From Achromobacter sp. Marseille-Q4962 (GTDB lineage Bacteria; Pseudomonadota; Gammaproteobacteria; Burkholderiales; Burkholderiaceae_B): DNA of 64,000 nucleotides. The stretch spans positions 124,001 to 188,000 of the forward strand of contig NZ_CALSFU010000006.1 in NCBI RefSeq assembly GCF_943737005.1. The letters run 5' to 3'. Each line of letters starts with the position of its first letter. Position 1 is the first letter of the stretch. The notes below the pieces were generated by a model. It was not told where the DNA came from. It saw nothing but the letters and a program-made list of their open reading frames with translations, and ran no database searches. Position numbers and translations under genes: made by a program. Positions 35,487 to 47,519 of this stretch are shown one piece after another.

Positions 35487-36023
35487 ATGAATAACTCGAT
35501 CATCCGGGCCTGCCTCGCCATATGCTGGTGCGCCTTGCTGGCCGGCGCGCCGGCTGGGCCGGCAACCGCGGCGGCGTCCGCCGCGAGCGTGCAGGCCGCG
35601 GCGTGGCCTGCGGGCGAGTACCGCTGGACGGTGGATGACGGCAACGGCGAACCATCATACGTGCTGCGTCTTTACGCACAGCCGCTGCCCTCGGGCGACT
35701 ACGCGCTTGCGGGCAGCCTGCTGCTCGACGACGCCGAGCTGGGCGCGTATGGCTCGGCGCGTTTGCGCGACGGCAAGCTGGTGCTGGACGTCACCGCCAG
35801 CGGAGGCGTGCTGCAGGCGCCGCTCGATGCGGGCAAGCGCCGTTTCTACGCCACAGGCAAGGCGCCCGGCCGCGTCGATTCGGCGGGTTTCGCCACCATG
35901 CGGGCGGTGCTGGACCCGGGCTCGCTGGACGGGACGATGCAGCGCTACCAGACCAACGTCATGACGGGCCATCACGTCCAGGGCCCGGTCTACGTCAACA
36001 GCACGGTGCGGCGCCTGCGCTGA
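35487..36023 (+). CDS. Unrecognised secreted protein downstream of the siderophore receptor
   Basis: A 178-residue protein with a good ribosome site (AAGGAGA) and an N-terminal signal peptide (residues 1 to about 29, ending near PATAAA). I do not recognise the family. The mature part is short, beta-rich and low in charge clusters (GEYRWTVDDGNGEPSYVLRLY, LLLDDAELGAYGSARLRDG), with a repeated-strand look and no cysteine after the signal. It lies 137 bases after the receptor on the same strand and may be co-expressed with it. Alternatively it is an independent envelope protein. Confidence 0.72.
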   Translation: MNNSIIRACLAICWCALLAGAPAGPATAAASAASVQAAAWPAGEYRWTVDDGNGEPSYVLRLYAQPLPSGDYALAGSLLLDDAELGAYGSARLRDGKLVLDVTASGGVLQAPLDAGKRRFYATGKAPGRVDSAGFATMRAVLDPGSLDGTMQRYQTNVMTGHHVQGPVYVNSTVRRLR

Positions 36024-36032
36024 GCGCCGGCC

Positions 36033-36770
36033 TCAGCCTGCCGCGCGCGGCCTGCCGGGCGCGGCCTCGTGCGCCTGGCGCAGCCGGCCGGCGGCGTTTT
36101 CCATATGGCGGCGTGCCGCCGCGCGTGCGCCCTCGGCGTTCCCGGCGCGTATCGCTTCCACGATGGCGCGGTGTTCGTCCTGCACCGCGCGCATCAGGTC
36201 GGGACGCCGCGCTTCGTTGCCGCGCGTGACGCGGGTGGCGGCTTCGAGGTACTGGCTCACGAAATTCAGCGTGGCCAGGAAATACGGGTTGCCCGAGGCG
36301 TGCGCGATGCGGCGGTGGAACGCCACGTCTTCGCGCACGCCGTCTCCGCCGTCCTGCACGGCGCGGTCCAGTTCCGCCAGGGCGGCGTCGATGTCGGACA
36401 TGTCCGCTTCGCTGCGGTGCAGGGCGGCCTGGCCGGCGGCCTCGGTCTCCAGCGCGCGGCGCAGGTCCACGATGTGCAGCACCGCCCGCAGCGAGCCGAG
36501 CTCGGCCGCGTCGATGCGCAGCGGCCGCTTGCCGCCTCCGGCGGCCACGTACACGCCGCTGCCTTGGCGCGCCTCCACCACGCCGTCCTGGCGCAGGCGG
36601 GACACGGCCTCGCGGATCACCGTGCGGCTCACGCCGAACTGTTCGGCCAGCCGCAGCTCGGTCGGAAGCTTCTCGCCGGGCCGCACGCGGCCGGCGTCGA
36701 TCTCCGCCAGCAGGCGCTTGGCGACGGTATCGGTAAGCGTGGGGGGCGGAGGCAGGCGGGCGAAGCTCAT
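36033..36770 (-). CDS. GntR-family regulator, FadR subfamily
   Basis: A 245-residue GntR protein. The winged helix at residues 12-76 contains LTDTVAKRLLAEIDAGRVRPGEKLPTELRLAEQFGVSRTVIREAVSRL and GSGVYVAAG. The all-helical FCD effector domain shows the metal-type positions DVAFHRRIAHASGN (Asp/His) and DEHRAIVEAIRAG (His), as in FadR-type regulators of sugar-acid or carboxylate pathways. It is divergent from the znuD-like gene, but the tight Zur-like sites in between suggest zinc, not this protein, controls that gene. Its real target may be the hydroxypyruvate isomerase-like gene or elsewhere. Confidence 0.88.
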   Translation of the reverse strand: MSFARLPPPPTLTDTVAKRLLAEIDAGRVRPGEKLPTELRLAEQFGVSRTVIREAVSRLRQDGVVEARQGSGVYVAAGGGKRPLRIDAAELGSLRAVLHIVDLRRALETEAAGQAALHRSEADMSDIDAALAELDRAVQDGGDGVREDVAFHRRIAHASGNPYFLATLNFVSQYLEAATRVTRGNEARRPDLMRAVQDEHRAIVEAIRAGNAEGARAAARRHMENAAGRLRQAHEAAPGRPRAAG

Positions 36771-36820
36771 GGCGGCGGGATCCTGCCGCGGCGGCGGATG
36801 GCGGCGGCGTGCCTATGATA

Positions 36821-36851
36821 CGCGGGGTCCGGTCGCGGGGTCCGGTCGCGG
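36821..36851. repeat. 13-bp tandem repeat beside the GntR gene
   Basis: Two copies of CGCGGGGTCCGGT (36821-36833, 36834-36846) plus five more bases. The period (13 bp) and the core GTCCGGTC are shared with the four-copy array at 4837-4888 between selC and selD. Function unknown. Confidence 0.8.
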
Positions 36852-36887
36852 ATTGCGGCAATTACGGCATTGCCGGCCGATATTGAA

Positions 36888-36928
36888 ACGTTATATCATC
36901 CATATCCAATTTTGTAATGATATAACGT
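36888..36928. promoter_or_regulatory. Paired Zur-like sites before znuD
   Basis: Two facing copies of a zinc-uptake-regulator-like site: ACGTTATATCATCCA on the plus strand (36888-36902) and ACGTTATATCATTAC on the minus strand (36914-36928). They share ACGTTATAWCAT with the site before rpmJ2 at 45352 and resemble the known Zur core GTTATA-N-TATAAC. The pair ends 15 bases before the znuD start. Repression by zinc-loaded Zur is inferred. Confidence 0.8.
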
Positions 36929-36943
36929 TTTCAAGGAAACCGT

Positions 36944-39055
36944 ATGTCCGGGATCGCTTCCCACCGCCGCCCCCACGTCATGCACGACCGCCGCGCGCGG
37001 TCCCGCGCAGCGCGACTCCGGCCGGCCGCCATGGCGGTGCTGCTGCTCGGGTCGGCCGCGCAGGCCGAAGACGCCGACACCCGCCGCGCCGGCGCACCCG
37101 CCGCGCTTGCGCCCATCACTGTCTCGGCCAACCCCCTGGGGCTGGACCTGAACAGCACCGCACAGCCCGCTTCCGTACTCGAAGGCAGCGAACTGGTCGA
37201 AAAGCGCGCCGGCACCCTCGGCGACACGCTGGACGGGCTGCCCGGCGTGCACAGCGACACCTTCGGCGCGGGCGCCAGCCGCCCGGTCATCCGGGGCCAG
37301 ACCGCGCCGCGTGTCAAGGTGCTGTCCGACGGCTCCGAGCTCATGGACGCCTCGGCCATTTCGCCCGACCATGCCGTCACCACCGAACCGCTGCTGGCCG
37401 AACGCATCGAGGTGCTGCGCGGGCCGGCCGCGCTGCTCTACGGCGGCGGGGCCATCGGCGGCGTGGTCAACGTGGTCGACCGCAAGATTCCCACCTATGT
37501 GCCCGAAAAAGGCATCGAGGCCGAAGCGGAGATCCGCGGCGCCACCGGCACCCGCGAGCGCGCCGGGGCGGTTGGCGTCACGGCGGGGCAGGACGCTTTC
37601 GCGGTGCGCGTGGAGGGCATGAAGCGCCGCACCAGCGACTACGACGTGCCCCATTGGCCGGGCGGCAAGCTGGAAGGCTCCTACAGCGAATCCACCCAGG
37701 GGTCGGTGGGCATGTCCTGGGTGGCGCCGCGCGGCTACGTGGGCGTGGCCTTCACCCATCTCGAAAGCGAATACGGCCTGCCGGGCCACAACCACGAGTA
37801 CGAAAGCTGCCATCCGCACGGCACGCACCTGCATTGCGGCGGCCACGGCCACGACGAGCACGAGCACCACGATCACCACGGCCACGAGGAAGGCCATGGC
37901 GTGCCCTACGTGAAGCTGCGCAGCAACCGCACCGACCTGCGCGCCGAATACGCCGACCCGTTCGCCGGTTTCGAGAAGATCCGCCTGCGCGGCGGCTACA
38001 CCGACTACCAGCACAAGGAGATCGAAGGCGGCGAGGTCGGCACGCGCTTCAAGAACCGCGGCTACGATCTGCGCCTGGAGCTGCAGCACAAGTCCGTGGC
38101 GGGCTGGCGCGGCGTTGTCGGCATGCAGACTTCGTACAGCGACTTCCGCGCCGACGGCGAGGAGGCTTTCCTGCCGCGCAGCAAGACGCGCGCGCACGGC
38201 GTTTTCCTGCTCGAAGAGTACAAGCTCGACGACTGGCGTTTCGAGCTCGGCGCCCGACAGGACTGGCAGCGCGTGTCTCCCGAAGGCGGCCAGCGGCGCA
38301 GCAGCCTGTCGGGCGCTTCGCTGTCGGCGGCGGCCATCTGGAACTTCGCGCCCCAGTACTCGGTGGCGCTGTCGCTGTCGCGCTCGCAGCGCCTGCCCAC
38401 GGCGCAGGAGCTCTACGCGCGCGGCGTGCACCTGGCCACCAACACCTACGAGATCGGCGATCCCGGCCTGGGCCGCGAAACCTCCCGCAACATCGACCTG
38501 ACGCTGCGCAAGCATGCGGGCGACACCACCTTCAGCGCCAGCGTGTTCCACAACCGCGTGAAGAACTACATCTACGCCGACACGCTGGACCGCTACGAAG
38601 ACTTCCGCCTCATCCAGTACGCCCAGCGCGATGCCGAGTTCACCGGGGTCGAAGGCGAGCTGCGCCACCAGTTCACCCCCGTGTTCTCGGCCGCGCTGTT
38701 CGGCGACTACGTGCGCGGCCGCCTGACGGGCGGGGAGGGCGACCTGCCGCGCATTCCGGCCGCCCGCGCCGGCCTGCGCGGCAACGTGAAGTGGGACGCC
38801 TGGTCCGGCAGCATCGAATACGCCCGCGTGTTCTCGCAGAAAGACATCGCCGCCTACGAAGACCGCACGCCCGGCTACAACATGGTGAACGCCGTGGTGG
38901 CCTATCGCGGCAAGGCGGGCGCAACGGGATATGAGGTCTATCTGCGCGGCACCAACCTGCTGAACCGGCTGGCGTACAACCATGCGTCGTTCATTTCGTC
39001 GGTGGCGCCGCTGCCGGGCCGCAGCGTGCTGCTGGGCATGCGTCTCACATACTGA
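36944..39055 (+). CDS. znuD: ZnuD-type TonB-dependent zinc receptor
   Basis: A 703-residue outer-membrane receptor. The signal peptide lies within residues 1 to about 42 (cleavage near AAQA-ED). The plug has LAPITVSANPLGLDL, GTLGDTLDGLPGVHSDTFGAGASRPVIRGQ and ERIEVLRGPAALLYGGGAIGGVVNVVD. An external loop near residues 285-325 is extremely His-rich (CHPHGTHLHCGGHGHDEHEH), and the barrel ends with GMRLTY. Both the His loop and the overall pattern match ZnuD, which imports zinc (and possibly heme) in Neisseria and Acinetobacter. The twin Zur-like sites upstream support control by zinc. Confidence 0.92.
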   Translation: MSGIASHRRPHVMHDRRARSRAARLRPAAMAVLLLGSAAQAEDADTRRAGAPAALAPITVSANPLGLDLNSTAQPASVLEGSELVEKRAGTLGDTLDGLPGVHSDTFGAGASRPVIRGQTAPRVKVLSDGSELMDASAISPDHAVTTEPLLAERIEVLRGPAALLYGGGAIGGVVNVVDRKIPTYVPEKGIEAEAEIRGATGTRERAGAVGVTAGQDAFAVRVEGMKRRTSDYDVPHWPGGKLEGSYSESTQGSVGMSWVAPRGYVGVAFTHLESEYGLPGHNHEYESCHPHGTHLHCGGHGHDEHEHHDHHGHEEGHGVPYVKLRSNRTDLRAEYADPFAGFEKIRLRGGYTDYQHKEIEGGEVGTRFKNRGYDLRLELQHKSVAGWRGVVGMQTSYSDFRADGEEAFLPRSKTRAHGVFLLEEYKLDDWRFELGARQDWQRVSPEGGQRRSSLSGASLSAAAIWNFAPQYSVALSLSRSQRLPTAQELYARGVHLATNTYEIGDPGLGRETSRNIDLTLRKHAGDTTFSASVFHNRVKNYIYADTLDRYEDFRLIQYAQRDAEFTGVEGELRHQFTPVFSAALFGDYVRGRLTGGEGDLPRIPAARAGLRGNVKWDAWSGSIEYARVFSQKDIAAYEDRTPGYNMVNAVVAYRGKAGATGYEVYLRGTNLLNRLAYNHASFISSVAPLPGRSVLLGMRLTY

Positions 39056-39122
39056 GCCCGAGCGCGAAGCCGGTGTTTGCCGCTATGCTTGATGGCGTCA
39101 CACACCCTCGCCGGAGTCCGCC

Positions 39123-39908
39123 ATGCTGAAGTTCGCCGCCAACCTGTCCATGCTGTACCCGGAGCACGCGTTCCTGGACCGGTACGCGGCCGCCGCCGCC
39201 GACGGTTTCGAGGGCGTGGAATGCATGTTTCCCTACGAGGCGCCCGCGGCTTTCGTGCGGGAGCGCCTGGAGGCCAACGGCCTGAAACAGGTGCTCTTCA
39301 ATGCGCCGGCCGGGGTGGCCGCGCGCGGCGAGCGGGGGCTGGCGGCCCTGCCCGGCCGGCAATCGGAGTTCCGGGCCGGCATCGACCAGGCCCTGGCCTA
39401 CGCCACCGCCCTGTCGTGCCCCCGCGTGCACGTCATGGCGGGGCTGGCGGGCCCCGACGACTCGCGCGCCGCCATGCGCGACTGCTATCTCGAAAACCTG
39501 GCCTGGGCCGCCGCCCAGGCGGCCTCGGCCTGCGTCACGGTGCTGATCGAGCCCATCAATACGCGCGACATCCCGGGCTATTTCCTGAACCGCCAGCAGG
39601 ACGCGCACGCCATCGTGCAGGAAGTCGGCGCGCCGAACCTCAAGGTGCAGATGGACCTGTACCACTGCCAGATCGTCGAAGGCGATGTCACGACGCGGCT
39701 GCGCGAATACCTGCCCACGGGCCGGGTGGGCCACCTGCAGATCGCCGGCGTGCCGCTGCGCCAGGAGCCCGACCGAGGCGAACTCGACTACGGCTGGATT
39801 TTCGGCGTGCTGCGCGAACTCGAATACAGCGGCTGGATAGGCTGCGAATACCGACCCGCGGACAGCACCACGGCGGGCCTGCGCTGGCTGCGGGCCGCGC
39901 GCGGCTGA
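39123..39908 (+). CDS. hyi: Hydroxypyruvate isomerase family protein
   Basis: A 261-residue xylose-isomerase-like TIM barrel of the Hyi family, which interconverts hydroxypyruvate and tartronate semialdehyde; the related OtnI acts on 2-oxo-tetronate. Visible landmarks are [32 protein letters not shown], the metal/catalytic [29 protein letters not shown] and GYIGCEY-like [10 protein letters not shown] near the end. No glyoxylate carboligase or tartronate semialdehyde reductase gene is adjacent, so the physiological substrate is uncertain. It stands alone after znuD, in convergence with the RhtA-type transporter. Confidence 0.85.
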
Positions 39909-39933
39909 ACCCCGCGCAGGCCCGGCCGCCCTG

Positions 39934-40821
39934 TTATTTTCGGGCCTGGCGCCGCGCCGTGGCCGCGCAGCCGGCCGAGGCCGCGATGATGCCGCCGATG
40001 GCCAGCCACTGCGTGGACGACAGGTGCTCGTGCAGCACGACCACGCCAGCCAGCGCGCCCATCGCGGGCTCCATGCTCAACAGCACGCCGAAGGTCTTCT
40101 TGGGCAGCCGCTTCAGCGCGATCATTTCCAGCGAATAGGGCAAGGCGCTGGAAAGCACGCCCACGCCGATGCCGGCCAGCAGCAGGCCGGGGTCGAGCAG
40201 CGCCGCGCCCGCGTGCGCCGCGCCCACCGGCACGGCCACCAGCGCCGCGGCCGTCAGGCCCAGCGAGGTTGCCTGGCCGCCATGCACATTGCCCGCGATC
40301 TTGCCGAAGACGATATACAGCGCCCAGCACACCGCCGCGCCCAGGGCATAGGCAATGCCCACCGGGTCCAGGCCATGGGCGGATTGCCCGGTGGGCACGA
40401 GCAGCACCAGCCCCGCCGCCGCGCAGGCGATCCACACGAAGTCGATGGCGCGCCGCGACATGGCGACGGCCAGCGTCAGCGGCCCGGTGAACTCGATGGC
40501 GATCGCCACGCCCAGCGGCAGCGTGCGCAGGGCCATGTAGAAGCTCAGGTTCATACAGGCCAGGGTCACGCCGTACACCGCGATCTTGGCGGCGTCGCGG
40601 CGCTTCAGTGGAAAGCGCCACGGCCGCCAGAACGCCAGCAAGATGACTGCGCCCACCAGGATGCGATAGGCCGTGGTGCCTTGCGCGCCCACCTGCGGAA
40701 ACAGCGACTTGGCGAACGAGGTGCCCACGCACAGCGAAGCCATGGCGCCGATCAGCGACAGGACGGGCAGCAGGACGGAGGAATCGGCGGGATTTCCTGG
40801 CTTGAGGGTGGCGGTGATCAT
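39934..40821 (-). CDS. EamA/DMT-family exporter, RhtA-like
   Basis: A 295-residue inner-membrane protein with about ten hydrophobic segments and two EamA repeats, resembling RhtA, the threonine/homoserine exporter. Recognisable stretches are GAMASLCVGTSFAKSLFP, AYRILVGAVILL, YMALRTLPLGVAIAIEFTGPL and the second-repeat SSALPYSLEMIALKRLP and LLSMEPAMGALAGVVVLHE. It is on the same strand as the PPOX-methyltransferase genes, but a 161-base gap makes it the doubtful last member of that run. The substrate is probably a small amino acid or similar, not determined. Confidence 0.87.
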   Translation of the reverse strand: MITATLKPGNPADSSVLLPVLSLIGAMASLCVGTSFAKSLFPQVGAQGTTAYRILVGAVILLAFWRPWRFPLKRRDAAKIAVYGVTLACMNLSFYMALRTLPLGVAIAIEFTGPLTLAVAMSRRAIDFVWIACAAAGLVLLVPTGQSAHGLDPVGIAYALGAAVCWALYIVFGKIAGNVHGGQATSLGLTAAALVAVPVGAAHAGAALLDPGLLLAGIGVGVLSSALPYSLEMIALKRLPKKTFGVLLSMEPAMGALAGVVVLHEHLSSTQWLAIGGIIAASAGCAATARRQARK

Positions 40822-40982
40822 TGCGGCGGTTCAGCGTATGCGGACGGGATGCCGGGAGGCGAAGCGAGAGCGTGTTTCCGCCCCGTCGCGCCCGAAGGCC
40901 CCCAGTGTACGCAAACCGGCCGCGGAGATGCGGGAAAACCCGGGACCGGCTCCTGGCGGCATCCCGCCCGCCGCATTCCGGC

Positions 40983-42002
40983 TCAATAGAGATTGCGCTT
41001 GTAGTCTTCCTCCAGCCCTTTGCGCATCAGTCCGGGCACGGAAACCATTCCGCGCGCCAGCGCCGCCCGCCATCCCCCGCCGCGATTGAGCTTCACGTGG
41101 GCCGCGAAAACGGCGGCCGGGTCGATGTCCGGCGCTGGCGCGGGCGCATCCCACAGCCGCGCCCGCGCCAGCGCCGCGCTTTCGCGCAGCGCGATGCGAG
41201 GCGCATACAGGCTCACGGCCAGCCGCGGCGTCTTGCCCTGCACGGCGAACTCCGCCAGCACGGCGGGATCGGCCGTGATCTCCGTCCGTCCCTGTGCGCG
41301 GGCCACCAGCGTGCTGCCGGGCGCCAGCAGCAGCGCCGCCGCCCGGGGGCGGGCGAGCAGGTTGTACAGGCTGTCCATGCGCCGGTTGCCGGGGCGGTCC
41401 GCGTAGCGTATGCCGCCGTCGAAGGGACGCGCCAGCATTCCCGCCGGATCGCCCTTCGGGCTGAGGTCGGCGCGGTTGCGGGCATCCGCCGTTGCCAGCC
41501 CCAGGAAGCGGGCGGCGGAGATGAAATCATGGCTGTCCAACCCCGCACCTTCTTGCGGCGCCTGCGCGGTTTCCGTGCGCCAGAAATCCGAGCGCAGGAG
41601 CGCCTTGGCGCAATGCGCATAGCACTCGTGGACATCGACCAAGATCTCGTCTCCCGTCGCATGGGCCACCACGCCGTTGATGCGCAAGGTTTCGCCCAGG
41701 CCGGGAATCAGGAACAGCAGGCCCGCGCCGCGGCCCGGCGCGGCAAGGTCCGGGTCGTCGACCAGACGCCAGGGCAGGCTGAGCCGGCCCGGCGTGTCCG
41801 CGCGCGCGAAACCGGCCGCGCCGCCCGCGAGGGTCGCGTCCACGCCCCGCTCGTCGCAGAACGCGGCGAAGGCCAGCGGCGATGCGGCCAGCCAGCGCCG
41901 CGCCCAGGCATCAAGGTGGTCGATGACTTTCAGGTCGGCCACGGCCGGCCGCGCGCCGACCTGCGCCTGCAGGCCCTGTTCGGTGCGGATGATGTGGTTC
42001 AT
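40983..42002 (-). CDS. Double-domain PPOX-type FMN flavoprotein
   Basis: A 339-residue protein of the pyridoxamine-phosphate-oxidase-like FMN superfamily (MSMEG_1061 branch). The usual length is about 200 residues; here I read two tandem copies. The first (about residues 27-150) keeps GLGETLRINGVVAHATGDE and HECYAHCAKALLRSDFW, but its phosphate-binding segment is replaced by LSLPWRLVDDPD. The second (about 160-310) keeps IRYADRPGNRRMDSLYNLL and GRTEITADPAVLAEFAVQGKTP. Each copy has lost part of what the other retains. The start at 42002 has GAGGA upstream. It follows the methyltransferase gene by 10 bases and ends the rpmJ2-led run. Function is unknown. Confidence 0.75.
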   Translation of the reverse strand: MNHIIRTEQGLQAQVGARPAVADLKVIDHLDAWARRWLAASPLAFAAFCDERGVDATLAGGAAGFARADTPGRLSLPWRLVDDPDLAAPGRGAGLLFLIPGLGETLRINGVVAHATGDEILVDVHECYAHCAKALLRSDFWRTETAQAPQEGAGLDSHDFISAARFLGLATADARNRADLSPKGDPAGMLARPFDGGIRYADRPGNRRMDSLYNLLARPRAAALLLAPGSTLVARAQGRTEITADPAVLAEFAVQGKTPRLAVSLYAPRIALRESAALARARLWDAPAPAPDIDPAAVFAAHVKLNRGGGWRAALARGMVSVPGLMRKGLEEDYKRNLY

Positions 42003-42012
42003 GGCGGAATCC

Positions 42013-42876
42013 TCACGATGCGCCGTCGCGCGCATGCAGTTCATACACGGCATAGAAAGGCACGCCGCAGACCAGGCGGAACAGCGGCCCGAAGGCGGAA
42101 TAGGGAAACCCATAGCCTTCCATGACCTTGCGGGCCGCGGCCATGCGCAGGCGCGGATGCGGGCGTGTCAGGTCGGCCAGGCGGCGCGGGCCCCAGCCGA
42201 ACTCCGCCCGCGTGTGCCGCACGGAAGGATGGCGGCGCGCCCGTCCGGCGGCCAGCCAGCACATGGCGTCGAAGGCGAATACCGAGCCGGCCGGCGCGCG
42301 CTCGCCGACCTCGGCGAGAATGGCGGACACCGCTTGCGGCTGGAGGTACATCAGCACGCCCTCGCTCATCAGGAACACCGGCGCCTGGCCCGGCCCGGAT
42401 GGCAGGCCGAGGCGGTCCCACCAGCCGGGCTGGCAGAGATCCAATTCCGCCAGCGTGCGGCGCGGTCCGGGCTGGCCGAGCCATTCGCGGCGCAGCGCGA
42501 TCACTTCCGGCAGATCGGCGTCGACCATGCGCGCCTGGCCGTTGTCGAGCCATTGGAAGTAATCGCTGAGCCCGCAGCCCAGGTTGACGAGGCAGCCCGC
42601 GGGTTCGCGCGCCAGATAGGCCTGCGCCAGGTCCTGGAAGGCACGGGTGCGCGCCAGCACGCCGTAGACGCTCTGGCGGTCGCGCAGCCAGCGCTGGCCG
42701 TCGTCGCCCAGGCGCCGCAATGCCTGCCGGGCGGCGGCGTCGTTGACGGCGAGGGCGGGAAACATGGCGTCGCCGAAGGCGCGGGCGGCCAGCGGAATGC
42801 GCAGGGTGTCGCTGACCGGGTTGGAAAGCACCGATGGCGGGGCCGCGGGCGCGCCGGCCGGGGAAGCGTGCTGCAT
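42013..42876 (-). CDS. Class I SAM methyltransferase, leucine-carboxyl-methyltransferase family
   Basis: A 287-residue SAM-dependent O-methyltransferase of the LCM/PPM1-like group, which also includes polyketide O-methyltransferases. Motif I is CLVNLGCGLSDYFQWLD (near residue 95), and MVDADLPEVIALRREWL is the acidic loop binding the SAM ribose. VFLMSEGVLMYL is the family motif before the C-terminal barrel. It starts 28 bases after the SBF transporter gene and is followed by the PPOX-type gene after 10 bases. Its acceptor is unknown; the setting under a Zur-like site suggests metal starvation. Confidence 0.85.
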   Translation of the reverse strand: MQHASPAGAPAAPPSVLSNPVSDTLRIPLAARAFGDAMFPALAVNDAAARQALRRLGDDGQRWLRDRQSVYGVLARTRAFQDLAQAYLAREPAGCLVNLGCGLSDYFQWLDNGQARMVDADLPEVIALRREWLGQPGPRRTLAELDLCQPGWWDRLGLPSGPGQAPVFLMSEGVLMYLQPQAVSAILAEVGERAPAGSVFAFDAMCWLAAGRARRHPSVRHTRAEFGWGPRRLADLTRPHPRLRMAAARKVMEGYGFPYSAFGPLFRLVCGVPFYAVYELHARDGAS

Positions 42877-42901
42877 GGACGACTCCCGAAAGGGGAAGTC
42901 C

Positions 42902-42930
42902 TGATTATAAATGAGACTTATTTTTAATAA
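42902..42930. promoter_or_regulatory. AT-rich, Fur-like element at the end of the SBF gene
   Basis: TGATTATAAATGAGACTTATTTTTAATAA overlaps the last codons and stop of the SBF transporter gene, 26 bases upstream of the methyltransferase start. ATGAGACTTATT resembles Fur half-sites (ATGAGAAT-ATTATC) but differs clearly from the Zur-like core. It could be an internal promoter or operator for the methyltransferase-PPOX pair. Weak evidence. Confidence 0.4.
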
Positions 42931-43924
42931 AGAGCAGTCCGGCCGCTGTGCTTTCCCGCCCGAGGCGGCGCAGCAGCAGGCGGCGCAGCGCCACCAGGTG
43001 CGGAAACTCCACCAGCATGCCGATGACCAGCGCCGCGTAGACCAGCGGCCGGCCCGGCAGCGCCGCCATGGTCACGGCCAGCATCAGCGGCGCGTTGCGC
43101 GCCGCCAGGCTCATGGTCAGCAGGGCGTGGTCCGGGTAGGCCAGGCCGGCCAGGCGGCTCAGGCCCTCGCCCAGCAGGAAGGTGCACGCGAAAAACACGA
43201 AAACCGCCAGCAGCAGCCAGGCGAAGACGGCGCGGTGCTCCAGCATGACCGCGACGTGGGCCGCGAAAATTTCCATGACCAGCAGCGCGATCACCCAGGG
43301 CGTGGCCCGGTCCAGCGCATGCAGCAGCTTGTCGAACCGCGGGGCGCCCAGCCATTGCCGCAGCACGCCATGCGCGGCCACGGCGGCGGCGAGCGGCGCG
43401 AGGAACCCCTGCGCGAGCGCATCGCCCAGCGTGCCTGGCTCCACTTGCGCCGCATGGCCGGCGAACAGGTGCAGGTAGGCCGGATACAGGGCGATCTGCG
43501 CCGCCATGTTGATGGGAATGAGCGCTGCGCCCAGGGCGACGTTGCCGCCCGCCAGGCGGGTGAAACCCAGGAACCAGTCGGTGCAGGGCGCCATGAAGTA
43601 AATCGCGAGGCCGATCATGAGCCACGGATGCGCCGGCAGCAGCAGGGACGCGACGGCGTAGCCGATGAACGGAACGAGCACGAAATTCGCGGCCAGGATC
43701 AGGCCGATGACGCGCAGGCTGCCCCAGGCGCGCACGATGGCGCCGAAACGCACGCCGAAGCACAGCAGCCCCACCAGCGCCAGCAGCGTGGCGTCGACCC
43801 GCGCGCCCAGGGCGGCGCCGGCCGCGGGAGAGGCGTGGCCCAGCGCCGCGCCCGCGAGCATGCCGCCGGCCAGCAGCAGCGAGACGCGGGCCGAGGGCGC
43901 GGGGGCGGCGGCCGGGGTCAGCAT
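42905..43924 (-). CDS. SBF/ACR3-like membrane transporter
   Basis: A 339-residue inner-membrane protein with about ten hydrophobic helices, of the bile-acid:sodium symporter/arsenite-permease (SBF) superfamily. Typical parts are GLLCFGVRFGAIVRAWGS, LILAANFVLVPFIGYAVA, the discontinuous-helix region FMAPCTDWFLGFTRLAGGN with a conserved Cys, and LLTMSLAARNAPLMLAVTMA. ACR3 arsenite exporters carry a key Cys in the equivalent APCT motif, so anion or thiol-complex transport is conceivable, but no arsenic genes are nearby. Translation is coupled to the flavoprotein gene (overlap at ATGCTGA). The substrate is unknown. Confidence 0.82.
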   Translation of the reverse strand: MLTPAAAPAPSARVSLLLAGGMLAGAALGHASPAAGAALGARVDATLLALVGLLCFGVRFGAIVRAWGSLRVIGLILAANFVLVPFIGYAVASLLLPAHPWLMIGLAIYFMAPCTDWFLGFTRLAGGNVALGAALIPINMAAQIALYPAYLHLFAGHAAQVEPGTLGDALAQGFLAPLAAAVAAHGVLRQWLGAPRFDKLLHALDRATPWVIALLVMEIFAAHVAVMLEHRAVFAWLLLAVFVFFACTFLLGEGLSRLAGLAYPDHALLTMSLAARNAPLMLAVTMAALPGRPLVYAALVIGMLVEFPHLVALRRLLLRRLGRESTAAGLLFIKNKSHL

Positions 43925-45105
43925 GCGCAGCCCTCGCAGCATTCGCTGTTGCCGAACGGGCCCCACGCGCCCGCGCCGGCGGCCAGCGCGCTGGCGTCGC
44001 GTCCCAGGCATTGCGCGATGCCCTGGGCAATCAGGCCGAAGCGCTGGCGGAACTTGTAGATGAAGCAGTAGATGCGCTGGTCGTGGCGCACCTGCGGCCC
44101 GGCCAGGAACAGGCCGGGGGTGCGGGTGGATTCGTCGGCCTCGGTCAGCACGACGCGGCCGGCGTCGTCCCATTCCCAGAGATCGGCGATCTGCCGCGCG
44201 CCGCCTCCGCCGATAAAGCCGGTGCCCAGCACGGGAGGCTGCGCCGTGTCCCAAAAGCGTCCGTCGCCTGCGTGGACGCGATAACCCCCGGCGCTTGCGC
44301 GCGTGACGGCCATGACGTCCACGCCGAAAACGATTTCCAGGCGCCTGGAATCCACCGCTTCGTAAAGGCGCTGCCGGCTATAGGGCGAGAGCGACAGGCT
44401 GGGGTCGTAGGGGCCCCGCGGATCCCAGGTGGACTTGCGCGCCAGCAGGCGCACCGCGCGGCCCAGCCGCGCCAGGTTCACCGCGGCGTCCACTCCGCTT
44501 TCGTAGCCGCCGATGACGACATGGCCGCGACCCGGAACCGCCTGCCAGTCGGCGACCTGGGCATAGTGCAGGCAATCGCGCGCGCCGGGAAAGGGCGACA
44601 GGTCGGGAAACTGGTATTCGCCCGTGGCCCAGATCAGGAACCCGGCTTCCAGGCGGCCCTGCGCTGTGGACAGGATGAAGCCGCCGCCCGGCAGCGCGGC
44701 CACGGACTCGACTTTGCAGTCGCAGACCACCGGCAGATCGTGTTCCTGCGCCAGAAAAGCCAGGTAATCGGCATATTGCGCGCCGCTGGGATGCTCGGCG
44801 CCGGTGTAGATCGCCGGCGAGCTGGGCTCGTTGACCGCGTTGAGATCGGCCAGGCCGAAGGGATTGCTGTGGAAAGAAGGCGTGATGAAGCGCGTCTGCG
44901 CCGGCCAGCGCCGGAACGACTCGCCCACGCGGCCGGCTTCCAGCACGCCGAAGCGCAGCCCCGGCACCTTCCGCAAGGCCAGCGCCATGCCGATGCCGGC
45001 CGCGCCCGCGCCCACGACCGCCACATCGAGGCGGCGCGTCACCGGACCGCGCGGGCCGTGGCGGCCCGCGCGGTCCGCGTCGTGGAATGGCCGGGCAGCG
45101 CTCAT
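43918..45105 (-). CDS. CzcO-like NAD(P)/FAD flavoprotein with a Cys-rich tail
   Basis: A 395-residue flavoprotein of the CzcO/flavin-monooxygenase type. The FAD motif [19 protein letters not shown] is at about residues 26-44, [12 protein letters not shown] and [13 protein letters not shown] follow, and the NAD(P) motif [20 protein letters not shown] is near residue 190. [10 protein letters not shown] lies near the C-terminus. The last ten residues are [10 protein letters not shown], four cysteines that look like a metal- or thiol-binding tail. The start ATG at 45105 overlaps the rpmJ2 stop (ATGA), and the end overlaps the transporter start, so all three are one coupled unit under the Zur-like site. 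Substrate unknown. Confidence 0.85.
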
Positions 45106-45248
45106 GCCTTGCCGCGCTTGATGCCGCCCTGGCGCGCCTTGAAGCGCGGGTTGGATTTGCAGATGACGTAGATCCGGCCGCGGCGGCGCACGACCTGGCA
45201 ATCGCGATGGCGCGTCTTCGCGTCCTTCAGCGAGGCAAGCACTTTCAT
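45102..45248 (-). CDS. rpmJ2: Zinc-independent 50S ribosomal protein L36 paralogue (YkgO type)
   Basis: A 48-residue L36 of the C-minus type: [20 protein letters not shown] at the start and [16 protein letters not shown] near the end, very like E. coli YkgO. It lacks the full Cys/His zinc ribbon of ordinary L36. Such paralogues replace the zinc form during zinc starvation and are Zur-repressed in many bacteria, which frees zinc from ribosomes. A Zur-like site at 45352-45366 lies 104 bases upstream. The stop overlaps the flavoprotein start (ATGA), an unusual coupling of a ribosomal protein gene to an enzyme gene. Confidence 0.95.
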
Positions 45249-45351
45249 GGGGGTTCCTTGCGAAGAAGAGAGAATCAACAGGAGGCGGCGGGCATGGAGA
45301 ACGGGAGGCGGGAGGTTGGGCCTAAGCCGCAAATGGCTTGGCAATTTCAAT

Positions 45352-45366
45352 ACGTTATAACATAAC
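45352..45366. promoter_or_regulatory. Zur-like operator of the rpmJ2 operon
   Basis: ACGTTATAACATAAC, in which GTTAT-AAC-ATAAC is a perfect 5-3-5 palindrome identical in layout to the Zur core GTTATA-N-TATAAC. It shares ACGTTATAWCAT with the two sites before znuD. It is the only such site in the 248-base gap between rpmJ2 and the divergent membrane-protein gene. The flanking AT-rich bases (45343-45375) probably hold the promoter. Confidence 0.82.
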
Positions 45367-45496
45367 AATAATACGTCAGCCCGCGGCCGCCCGTCACGCG
45401 CGCCGTGGCGGTCCGGCCTGACATCCCGAAGGAAAACGATACAAAGCCGTGCCGCCCGGCTTGCTAGCATGACCCTTCCTGCGACGGGAGGCCGGG

Positions 45497-46789
45497 ATGC
45501 CGGGAATCGCTGCGCCGTTCGTTCTGACGTTTCGCCTGTGGCGACGCTTCTGGCCGCAACTCGCGGCCCTGGTGCTGGCCGGCGTGCTCGTCCACGGCCT
45601 GCTGCTGCAGGCGGCGGTGCGCGTCGGCTTTCTCAACCACCTGGCCGGGCTTGCCGTGCTCACGCTGGTCGCGCTGGCCCAGCTCGTGATTACCGTGACC
45701 CTGTTCCAGGTGCTGCTGCCCGGCTTGCCGGCCCTGCGGGCGGCGCAGGCGGCGGCGCGAGGCGGAAGCGGTGCCGAAAAGCCGGGATTCCGGGGGCTGA
45801 TGTCCGCCGTCACGATCGCGCTGCTGCCTTTCTTCGCCTATTACGCCGCCTGGGGATTCCTGGGCGACACCGTGCGCCAGTATTCGCGCCTGGCGCTGGA
45901 CCTCGATCCCTTCGGCACGCACGGCCTCATCCTGGATGCGCTGGATTCGCGCTGGCTGCTGGTGTCGGTGGCGGTGTCGTGGCTGGTGCGCAAGGCGGCC
46001 ACGCGGCTGCGCCAGGCCACCGGCCGCCCGGTGTGGCAGATCGTGGTCGTGGTGTGCGAAACCAACTGGATCCTGGTCGGCCTGTATGTCATCAGCCGCT
46101 GGAAAGACCAGGCCTGGCAATGGATCGCCCAGCTCGGCATCTGGCAGAGCCTGCGCGGCTTGCTGGAAGCGCTGGCCGAGCCGGTTTCGTCCGCGTGGGC
46201 GGCCGGCATGGCGCCGGCCGAGGCGGCGGCGGACACGCCGGGCGTCCTGCTGGCGAATCTGTTTTTCTACGCGCTGCTGCCCGTGGTCTGGCTGGCGATG
46301 GCCGCGCTCGTCTACGGCTACGATGTGCGGGACGAACAGCAGCTGCTGCGCATCCACCGCCGCGTCGAGCGCTTCGGCGAGCGCTACCGCGCCATCCCGA
46401 AATTCCTGCGCGACTTCGTCGCCCACTTCATCGGCGGCTACCGCTCGCGCTACCTGCCGATCGCCAACGGCGTGCGGCTCACGCTGAACGCCGGGGTGGT
46501 GCTACTGGTGACGCTGATCCTGGGATACCGTCTGATCGAATGGGGCAGCGCCTGGCTGTGGCTGGCCGCCAGCCGCCTCATCGGACCGCATGATCTCGAT
46601 ACCTGGCAGGTGCTGGCCCATGGCCTGAGCCTGCTGTTCGGCAGTCCGTTCCGCGATTCCTCCACCGGCATTCTGATCGAGCCGCTGCGCATCTGCTTCC
46701 TGGCGGCCATCCTGGAAACCGCATTCGCGCGGCCGGCAGCGGCTTCTGCGGCTGTTGCGCCCGACGCGCCCCGCAGCGAGCCCGCCTGA
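45497..46789 (+). CDS. Unrecognised multi-pass membrane protein
   Basis: A 430-residue inner-membrane protein with about seven or eight hydrophobic segments, for example [20 protein letters not shown] near residue 25, [18 protein letters not shown] near 105, [20 protein letters not shown] near 255 and [14 protein letters not shown] near 333. A soluble stretch before the last helices is rich in charged residues ([22 protein letters not shown]). I do not recognise the family. The start at 45497 follows GGGAGG. It is divergent from the Zur-preceded rpmJ2 gene and converges on a three-gene set of unknown envelope proteins, with which it may work. Confidence 0.72.
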
Positions 46790-46808
46790 CGCGCAGACGC
46801 CTTTGTTT

Positions 46809-47519
46809 TTATTGCGCCTGCACCAGCTCCGGGCGCCGCGCGAAGCGCAGATAGTACGGCCGCTGCGACGCGAGGCTTATCGCGGGCCGCAGCGTGGCGG
46901 CCACTTCACGCGGCACCAGAAAGGCATGCTGGACGCGCTGTGTGCCGCCTTCCTTTGCCGCCGCGCGGATCGCCGCGTTGCACTCCCGTTCGCTCGCGCG
47001 CGGCAACGGCAGCGCCAGCGTGGGCGTCCAGCGGCGGCCCTCCCCGTCTTCCAGCGAAACCACGCATTCCAGCGGCGCGCGGGCCGGCTGCGCGCCCGTC
47101 GCCTGCACGCTGAACTGCGCCACCACGGCCATGGCATCGGCCGGAATGCGCCCGCCGGCCGGGGCCGGCGCCATGCGCAACCCCGTCAACTGCCAGCGCA
47201 GGCCGCCGAACCCGGCCGGCGCGTCGCCTGCGGCTTCGCGGGCGAACAGGTCGCGGCCCGTCCACCATTGCCGCACGCTGTCGTACGCGGTGACGGCAAT
47301 CGTCAGCGGCAGCAGCACCGCCAGCAACGCCAGGCTGCGCCGCCGCCACAGCCGCTCCCCGGCGGAGGGCGGATCATCGCGCAGCGCACGTTCCGGCGGG
47401 CTTGCGCCCTGGCGGGCTTCGGCATGGGCATCTTCGGGCGGCCGGGCGACGTCCGGTGAGCGGCCTGCGCCCTGGCGGGCTTCGGCATGAGCATCTTCGG
47501 GCGGCCGGGCGATGCTCAT
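46809..47519 (-). CDS. Unknown single-pass membrane protein with a duplicated N-terminus
   Basis: A 236-residue protein: a hydrophilic N-terminal region, one membrane helix (LALLAVLLPLTIAVTAY, near residues 64-80) and a 150-residue outer domain. The N-terminus contains ARPPEDAHAEARQGA twice with a 21-residue period, from a 63-bp tandem DNA duplication. The C-terminal domain (CVVSLEDGEGRRWTPTLALPLPR and PRPAIS-like RPAISLASQRPYYLRF) looks beta-rich. Last of three overlapping genes (ATGA overlap with the one before). Family not recognised. Confidence 0.7.
   Translation of the reverse strand: MSIARPPEDAHAEARQGAGRSPDVARPPEDAHAEARQGASPPERALRDDPPSAGERLWRRRSLALLAVLLPLTIAVTAYDSVRQWWTGRDLFAREAAGDAPAGFGGLRWQLTGLRMAPAPAGGRIPADAMAVVAQFSVQATGAQPARAPLECVVSLEDGEGRRWTPTLALPLPRASERECNAAIRAAAKEGGTQRVQHAFLVPREVAATLRPAISLASQRPYYLRFARRPELVQAQ
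47403..47514. repeat. 63-bp tandem duplication inside an unknown membrane-protein gene
   Basis: The segments at 47403-47451 and 47466-47514 are nearly identical (TGCGCCCTGGCGGGCTTCGG onwards, one mismatch noticed), with a period of 63 bp. It is in frame and gives two 21-residue units. Near-identity suggests a recent event. Confidence 0.85.

Follow-up and report, generated by a model that had tools for sequence, protein, structure and literature searches.

The DNA analysed here is a 64,000-nucleotide stretch of the Achromobacter sp. Marseille-Q4962 genome (contig NZ_CALSFU010000006.1, positions 124,001 to 188,000; hereafter the window), in which a minus-strand operon begins with rpmJ2, the gene of a zinc-free ribosomal protein L36, and continues with genes for a flavoprotein and a permease. 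We propose that the flavoprotein and the permease form a previously undescribed pair serving zinc starvation. The five minus-strand genes of the original prediction, with their overlaps and gaps and an RhtA-type gene 161 bases further on, were all reproduced, and the type-B L36 model bears out the view that the L36 paralogue is of the zinc-free kind. The promoter and the genes are arranged as follows:

45368-45397, minus strand: sigma-70-like promoter GTGACG-18-TATTAT, 9/12 (one in the region, against a mean of 0.4 in shuffled sequence).
45351-45367, minus strand: Zur-like box TGTTATGTTATAACGTA, just downstream of the -10 element.
45102-45248, minus strand: rpmJ2, type-B (zinc-free) ribosomal protein L36 (NF002021, 93.5 bits, cut-off 70).
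43918-45105, minus strand: flavoprotein of the Pyr_redox_3 fold, with a 4-base ATGA overlap with rpmJ2.
43921-43941, minus strand: codons of the C-terminal tail CCEGCAC of the flavoprotein.
42905-43924, minus strand: SBF-type permease of the ASBT fold with a conserved PCTDWF motif, overlapping the flavoprotein gene by 7 bases.
42013-42876, minus strand: LCM-type S-adenosylmethionine-dependent methyltransferase, 28 bases after the permease gene, apparently a local addition.
40983-42002, minus strand: PPOX flavoprotein of the MSMEG_1061 family, 10 bases after the LCM gene, apparently a local addition.

The Zur-like palindrome upstream of rpmJ2, formerly placed at 45352-45366, is present at 45351-45367, directly behind the promoter, a position usual for a repressor site. 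Boxes with up to three mismatches occurred at two sites in the window and at none in each of 100 shuffles. The second site, TGTAATGATATAACGTT (36913-36929, plus strand), precedes a plus-strand gene (36944-39055) whose product is a ZnuD-like TonB-dependent receptor bearing a His-rich loop; just upstream of the site its right half is repeated in inverted orientation (receptor region 36888-39055). ZnuD is the best among the families listed for this receptor gene, yet its cut-off was not reached (NF038289, 714 bits against 950). The whole genome was searched with a relaxed pattern built from the two window sites. At up to three mismatches this gave 15 sites against 19 in the control, so that weak Zur-like sites carry no meaning. 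At up to one mismatch it gave three sites, namely the two window sites, which are recovered by design, and one independent site, located between a zur-like Fur-family gene and the divergent genes of a zinc ABC transporter. The best NCBI model for the Fur-family gene is Zur (86.9 bits, below the cut-off of 167), and a COG0523 gene follows it. The transporter genes score best as AztABC-type, with an AztA-type ATPase (221.7 bits, cut-off 220), an ABC-3 permease and a ZnuA-family binding protein; AztB and AztC stay below their cut-offs. All three boxes of the genome adjoin a zinc-type gene. Since the operator at the rpmJ2 promoter is shared with the zur-like and zinc ABC-transporter locus of the same genome, the site at 45351-45367 is very probably a Zur box. 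The receptor gene is probably a co-regulated neighbour, as the second member of a predicted three-site Zur regulon. Similar motifs precede the homologous genes in relatives, and in three loci (L031, L032 and L033 in our numbering), in which rpmJ2 and SBF were not found, a box lies upstream of the flavoprotein gene at a distance of at most 300 bases.

The flavoprotein belongs to a distinct family that extends over Pseudomonadota, Verrucomicrobiota, Deinococcota, cyanobacteria, Bacillota and haloarchaea; in its own genome the family profile scores 573 bits for this protein and 26 for the next match. In an alignment of 62 members with identities down to 38%, Cys389, Cys393, Cys395 and Cys347 are invariant, Cys390 is kept in 61, and a C-terminal tail CC-x(1-4)-C-x(1-2)-C is present in all 62. 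The tail played no part in collecting these members, the scan having been run on two other peptides. Eight of 69 loci were omitted from the alignment, three as near-copies (L042, L051, L052) and five as broken or cut (L066 and L100; L097 and L101, which run off contig ends; L103, with a broken frame), and the tail was also seen in L042, L051, L052, L066 and L100. The predicted structure is good (pLDDT 87.2) apart from the N-terminus and the tail (pLDDT below 50 in the tail), and in this model the tail looks flexible. The nearest solved structure is 3d1c of Staphylococcus aureus (TMt 0.91, 34% identity by fold alignment), which carries a similar Cys tail in its sequence. The nearest characterised folds are those of the bacillithiol-disulfide reductase YpdA/Bdr (7a76, TMt 0.82; profile E 3e-27), with which the window protein shares the fold and the FAD and NAD(P)H domains, but it has the extra Cys tail and lacks the FAD-motif Cys of Bdr, a position occupied by Ser in one of the 62 flavoproteins and by Ala or a gap in the other 61. 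In 61 of these 62, CxxC is absent upstream of the final 60 residues. A YpdA/Bdr identity was rejected for the missing Cys and a low score (TIGR04018, 57.4 bits against a cut-off of 339.9), and an ArsO identity for its score (NF040505, 38.3 against 425). Flavin monooxygenases (FMO/BVMO) carry the fingerprint FxGxxxHxxx[FYWD]; it occurs in none of the 62 aligned proteins, for which this identity was rejected too; 'monooxygenase' labels for the family are doubtful.

The permease was previously described as SBF/ACR3-like. Its SBF membership stands (PF01758, 54 bits against a gathering score of 24.3; fold match to ASBT 8oyf, TMt 0.83), but an identity as an ACR3 arsenite efflux protein was rejected (TIGR00832, 57.3 bits against a cut-off of 282.8). 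It shares the SBF fold with ASBT and ACR3 transporters and differs from them in its own PCTDWF motif. Residues R59, C114, D116, N139, Q143, E253, R276, N277 and E306 are kept in all 27 aligned SBF proteins, an alignment that omits near-copies, L066 and the stop-bearing L058. In relatives the alternative partner of the flavoprotein is a FeoB-like protein with Gate and GTPase domains. True FeoB was rejected for the two such proteins scored (83.2 and 99.2 bits against the TIGR00437 cut-off of 315.65). Among 69 named loci, which were found with the flavoprotein alignment and span several phyla, the permease is SBF in 31, FeoB-like in 25 and neither in 13, and no locus has both. A quick tree of 71 flavoproteins, of which 60 have a permease label, shows some weak forks and requires at least three changes between SBF and Gate. 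That unrelated permeases replace each other beside the same flavoprotein suggests one shared cargo.

The conserved core consists of rpmJ2, the flavoprotein and the permease. All seven other same-genus loci have the box, rpmJ2 and the flavoprotein, followed by SBF (four) or a FeoB-like protein (three). The order rpmJ2-CzcO-SBF-LCM-PPOX was borne out in relatives as far as the permease and failed for LCM and PPOX. The box and rpmJ2 are separated by COG0523 and FolE2 genes in locus L131, and by two COG0523 genes together with a zur-like gene in Verticiella and Pollutimonas. COG0523, ZnuA or Zur was present in the fetched stretch of 42 of the 69 named loci, and rpmJ2 in 10, eight of these without COG0523, ZnuA or Zur. 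As controls, 20 arbitrary stretches of 13 kb were taken from nine genomes, and no COG0523, ZnuA, Zur, rpmJ2, SBF or FeoB-like gene was found in them; these controls come from the window's own family, whereas the compared loci span several phyla, and several of the neighbourhood queries derive from loci then searched and so include self-matches. A Zur-like box with up to two mismatches occurs in 29 of the 37 Pseudomonadota stretches and in none of the 20 controls. Further neighbours of the pair elsewhere are CysS, ThrS, PyrC, FolE2, DksA, QueD-like and carbonic-anhydrase-like paralogues; several such paralogues are described, in the portion of PMC2770081 consulted, as known or proposed zinc-sparing replacements in Zur regulons.

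Mobile elements add to this picture. In a plasmid collection, 538 of 72,556 records hold a homologue, 499 of these from Klebsiella; in one listed Klebsiella record the flavoprotein-family match touches a 'nucleoside recognition domain' gene. Eleven plasmid or phage loci were hand-picked from the listings for organism variety, and 10 have a Gate match. The flavoprotein and a Gate permease, the latter annotated as 'nucleoside recognition domain' or 'FeoB small GTPase', lie beside COG0523 on plasmids of Staphylococcus arlettae, S. epidermidis, Paenibacillus, Pantoea, Haloferax, Halocatena and Haloarcula; the Haloarcula flavoprotein was unannotated and was recovered by translation. In Acaryochloris the two genes adjoin zigA (COG0523) and Fur-family genes; on a second Acaryochloris plasmid (L147) just a 33-residue Gate remnant follows the flavoprotein. 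In Paracoccus the flavoprotein adjoins COG0523, cysS and aztABC, without a Gate permease. In Paenibacillus and the three haloarchaea the group includes a gene for ribosomal protein S14 with one or two cysteines; the zinc form of S14 carries four, so the zinc ligands appear to be lost. By this comparison, the flavoprotein seems to have been coupled to L36 and to S14, each in zinc-free form, in separate events. On the haloarchaeal plasmids (L141, L144, L146) a two-Cys S14 paralogue lies between the flavoprotein and Gate genes, and COG0523 is read divergently; this may be a zinc-sparing operon of archaea. The linkage to zinc starvation that had been proposed for the whole operon thus recurs, in relatives and across phyla, for the flavoprotein and the transporter; for LCM and PPOX it does not.

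Calprotectin is a zinc-sequestering protein. In the S. aureus DNA that we fetched, the flavoprotein, Gate and COG0523 genes stand in this order, with COG0523 cut at the record end, and the flavoprotein matches 3d1c end to end with no visible difference. One record (L148), deposited under the name of a Staphylococcus phage (OR844989.1, unverified), looks like S. aureus chromosome at this place. In strain Newman the genes NWMN_2483, NWMN_2482 and NWMN_2481, described as an FAD oxidoreductase, a 'hypothetical' protein and COG0523, were increased 152-, 83.1- and 43.2-fold by calprotectin, and all three were induced by sulfide, NWMN_2483 less by HNO, according to the sections of PMC5480029 consulted. 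Judged by the gene order, NWMN_2483 would correspond to 3d1c and NWMN_2482 would encode the Gate protein. This locus resembles the window in having a homologous flavoprotein with a Cys tail followed by a permease, in a calprotectin-responsive order; it differs in that its permease is FeoB-like rather than SBF and in having COG0523 instead of rpmJ2. The earlier statement that none of the four genes downstream of rpmJ2 has a known role in zinc supply holds where function is concerned; in staphylococci, however, genes arranged in this order are strongly induced by calprotectin, as the cited sections report. Corynebacterium glutamicum cg0795, a Zur-repressed 'putative oxidoreductase' divergent from the COG0523 gene cg0794 (PMC2823685, in the part consulted), is a further Zur-regulated oxidoreductase adjoining COG0523, likened here by its description and not by sequence. 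Zinc regulation of such flavoprotein genes is accordingly already known, whereas in the literature searched the version with SBF and rpmJ2 is not mentioned and no description of the flavoprotein-permease pair was found. Operons of type-B L36 (RpmJ2/YkgO) are Zur-controlled, and the window operon, with a zinc-free L36 behind a Zur-like box, resembles them and adds the flavoprotein-permease pair.

We consider it at best an even chance (roughly 0.5), judging from sequence comparison, that the core of L36, flavoprotein and permease is a Zur-repressed operon for zinc import in which the Cys tail accepts zinc. When zinc is short, Zur would leave the box and the core genes would be made. L36-2 paralogues spare ribosomal zinc, and the one encoded here would do the same. 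The permease, SBF-type here and FeoB-like Gate elsewhere, would bring zinc or a complex of zinc with a small thiol through the inner membrane; the flavoprotein, with NAD(P)H and FAD, would keep the Cys tail reduced or open the incoming thiolate complex; and the tail would take the zinc and pass it to COG0523 chaperones or client proteins. The argument has three parts: the predicted derepression at low zinc points to import or to mobilisation, a reductase fold that bears a thiol tail points to thiolate chemistry, and an interchangeable permease points to a transport partner. In combination they suggest that zinc or a zinc-thiol complex enters through the permease and that the tail takes it. In mercuric reductase a Cys-Cys tail takes Hg(II), and the proposed acceptance of zinc resembles this step.

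Several observations weigh against zinc import by this core. The family is patchy, with 8 of 43 same-genus, 8 of 151 family and 1 of 398 phylum-sample genomes positive, the own genome being included in each count and being the one positive of the phylum sample, where five candidates were scored per genome and the figure is a lower bound. Known SBF proteins usually transport organic anions, so zinc is not an obvious cargo. Of the 13 named loci without either permease, just two (L097 and L101) lie at a contig end; in 27 of the 69, the fetched flanks contain neither COG0523 nor ZnuA nor Zur; and the box is found in just 29 of the 69 stretches and in none of the 32 outside Pseudomonadota, where Zur boxes may differ from the scanned pattern. 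The zinc site is putative, and the Cys tail may be just a redox relay.

The nearest rival to zinc import is that the flavoprotein is a disulfide reductase that fixes cysteines oxidised after zinc loss, with the tail as a relay and the permease moving a thiol or disulfide. The YpdA/Bdr-like fold and the response of NWMN_2483 to sulfide and, less, to HNO (PMC5480029, sections consulted) would suit such thiol repair, but the near-absence of CxxC outside the last 60 residues, the replaced FAD-motif Cys and a FeoB-like partner better suited to metals than to thiols make it unlikely. A role in metal substitution, in which the permease imports Fe, Co or Mn under zinc starvation and the flavoprotein sets the redox state of the metal, would draw on the kinship of the FeoB-like permeases with the Fe(II) transporter and on the replacement paralogues FolE2, CysS and PyrC that adjoin the pair. 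It seems less likely still, because both FeoB-like proteins scored lie far under the FeoB cut-off and because, to our knowledge, SBF proteins have no metal role. Co-option of an arsenic-type pair, with an ArsO-like flavoprotein and ACR3-like efflux shielding zinc-freed thiols from metalloids, is, judged by family scores and the partner permease, the least likely of the alternatives: the kinship to ArsO and ACR3 (38.3 and 57.3 bits) is weak, the scores lie far under the cut-offs, and a FeoB-like partner is unfit for arsenite export.

The original prediction had taken all four genes downstream of rpmJ2 as one zinc-limitation module, perhaps for making, modifying or moving a small metal-binding or thiol compound. 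Enzyme-like methyltransferase, PPOX and flavoprotein genes packed closely together agree with synthesis and export of a zinc-binding or thiol compound by such a module, but LCM and PPOX occur beside the flavoprotein in none of 87 other loci (0/69 named, 0/7 same-genus and 0/11 plasmid or phage loci). The four-gene module is rejected because these two genes are not conserved with the flavoprotein; a candidate promoter of their own also stands against it. The idea of a small metal-binding compound, which rested largely on LCM and PPOX, is weakened with it; given also the missing monooxygenase fingerprint and a FeoB-like protein that is unlikely to export an organic compound, we regard it as improbable, somewhat more so than metal substitution. 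Among 200 family genomes, the own genome included, LCM has homologues in 7 and PPOX in 11, and the stretches fetched around the other 6 and 10, each about 4 kb long, contain no Zur-like box with up to two mismatches. Judged by gene content, LCM and PPOX look like a local addition, perhaps with a promoter of its own; the two genes also lie close enough for read-through from the Zur promoter. The candidate promoter, TTTATT-16-TATAAT (42904-42931, minus strand, before LCM), has a perfect TATAAT and a weak -35 element and fell below the threshold of the standard promoter scan, which did not list it; with both strands counted, the window contains three TATAAT. The surrounding patch is AT-rich (44% GC over 42880-42945), also encodes the odd C-terminus of the SBF protein and looks like a joint.

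The PPOX protein had been predicted to be a double PPOX protein. Its PPOX family membership was upheld and the doubling was not, Pfam giving a single PNPOx_N domain; TIGR04025 matches in three stretches (185.7 bits, cut-off 170). Two further features flank or precede the genes:

45275-45295, minus strand: mini open reading frame MPAASC-stop in the leader, with a Cys codon last before the stop, similar in four relatives.
39934-40821, minus strand: RhtA-like EamA exporter, 161 bases past the PPOX gene (329.6 bits, below the cut-off of 354), probably outside the operon.

Counterparts of the mini open reading frame precede rpmJ2 in L027, L028, L029 and L131 (MNSSC-stop, MKPTC-stop, MTPSC-stop and MNPPC-stop), all five, the window's included, having five to six codons. 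Leaders L039, L040 and L042 read M-x-L-S-C-R-F in its place, and it was not found in the leaders of L030, L047, L062, L099 and L136. From its sequence it is possibly a leader peptide. Rfam at gathering scores gave no match over 36000-47000.

Zur operons have been studied extensively, yet no function was found described in the literature searched for this flavoprotein-permease pair, which recurs in distant phyla next to zinc chaperones and to ribosomal proteins of the zinc-free type. A tentative extension of the zinc-import reading, less probable than the reading itself, is a redox-assisted route of zinc entry in bacteria and haloarchaea, in which an SBF or FeoB-like permease would hand zinc to the flavoprotein tail. 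Because unrelated permeases stand in for each other, whether they carry the same cargo can be tested directly, and a simple mutant is offered by the conserved Cys tail. If the route exists, it would make metal uptake depend on the thiol redox state.

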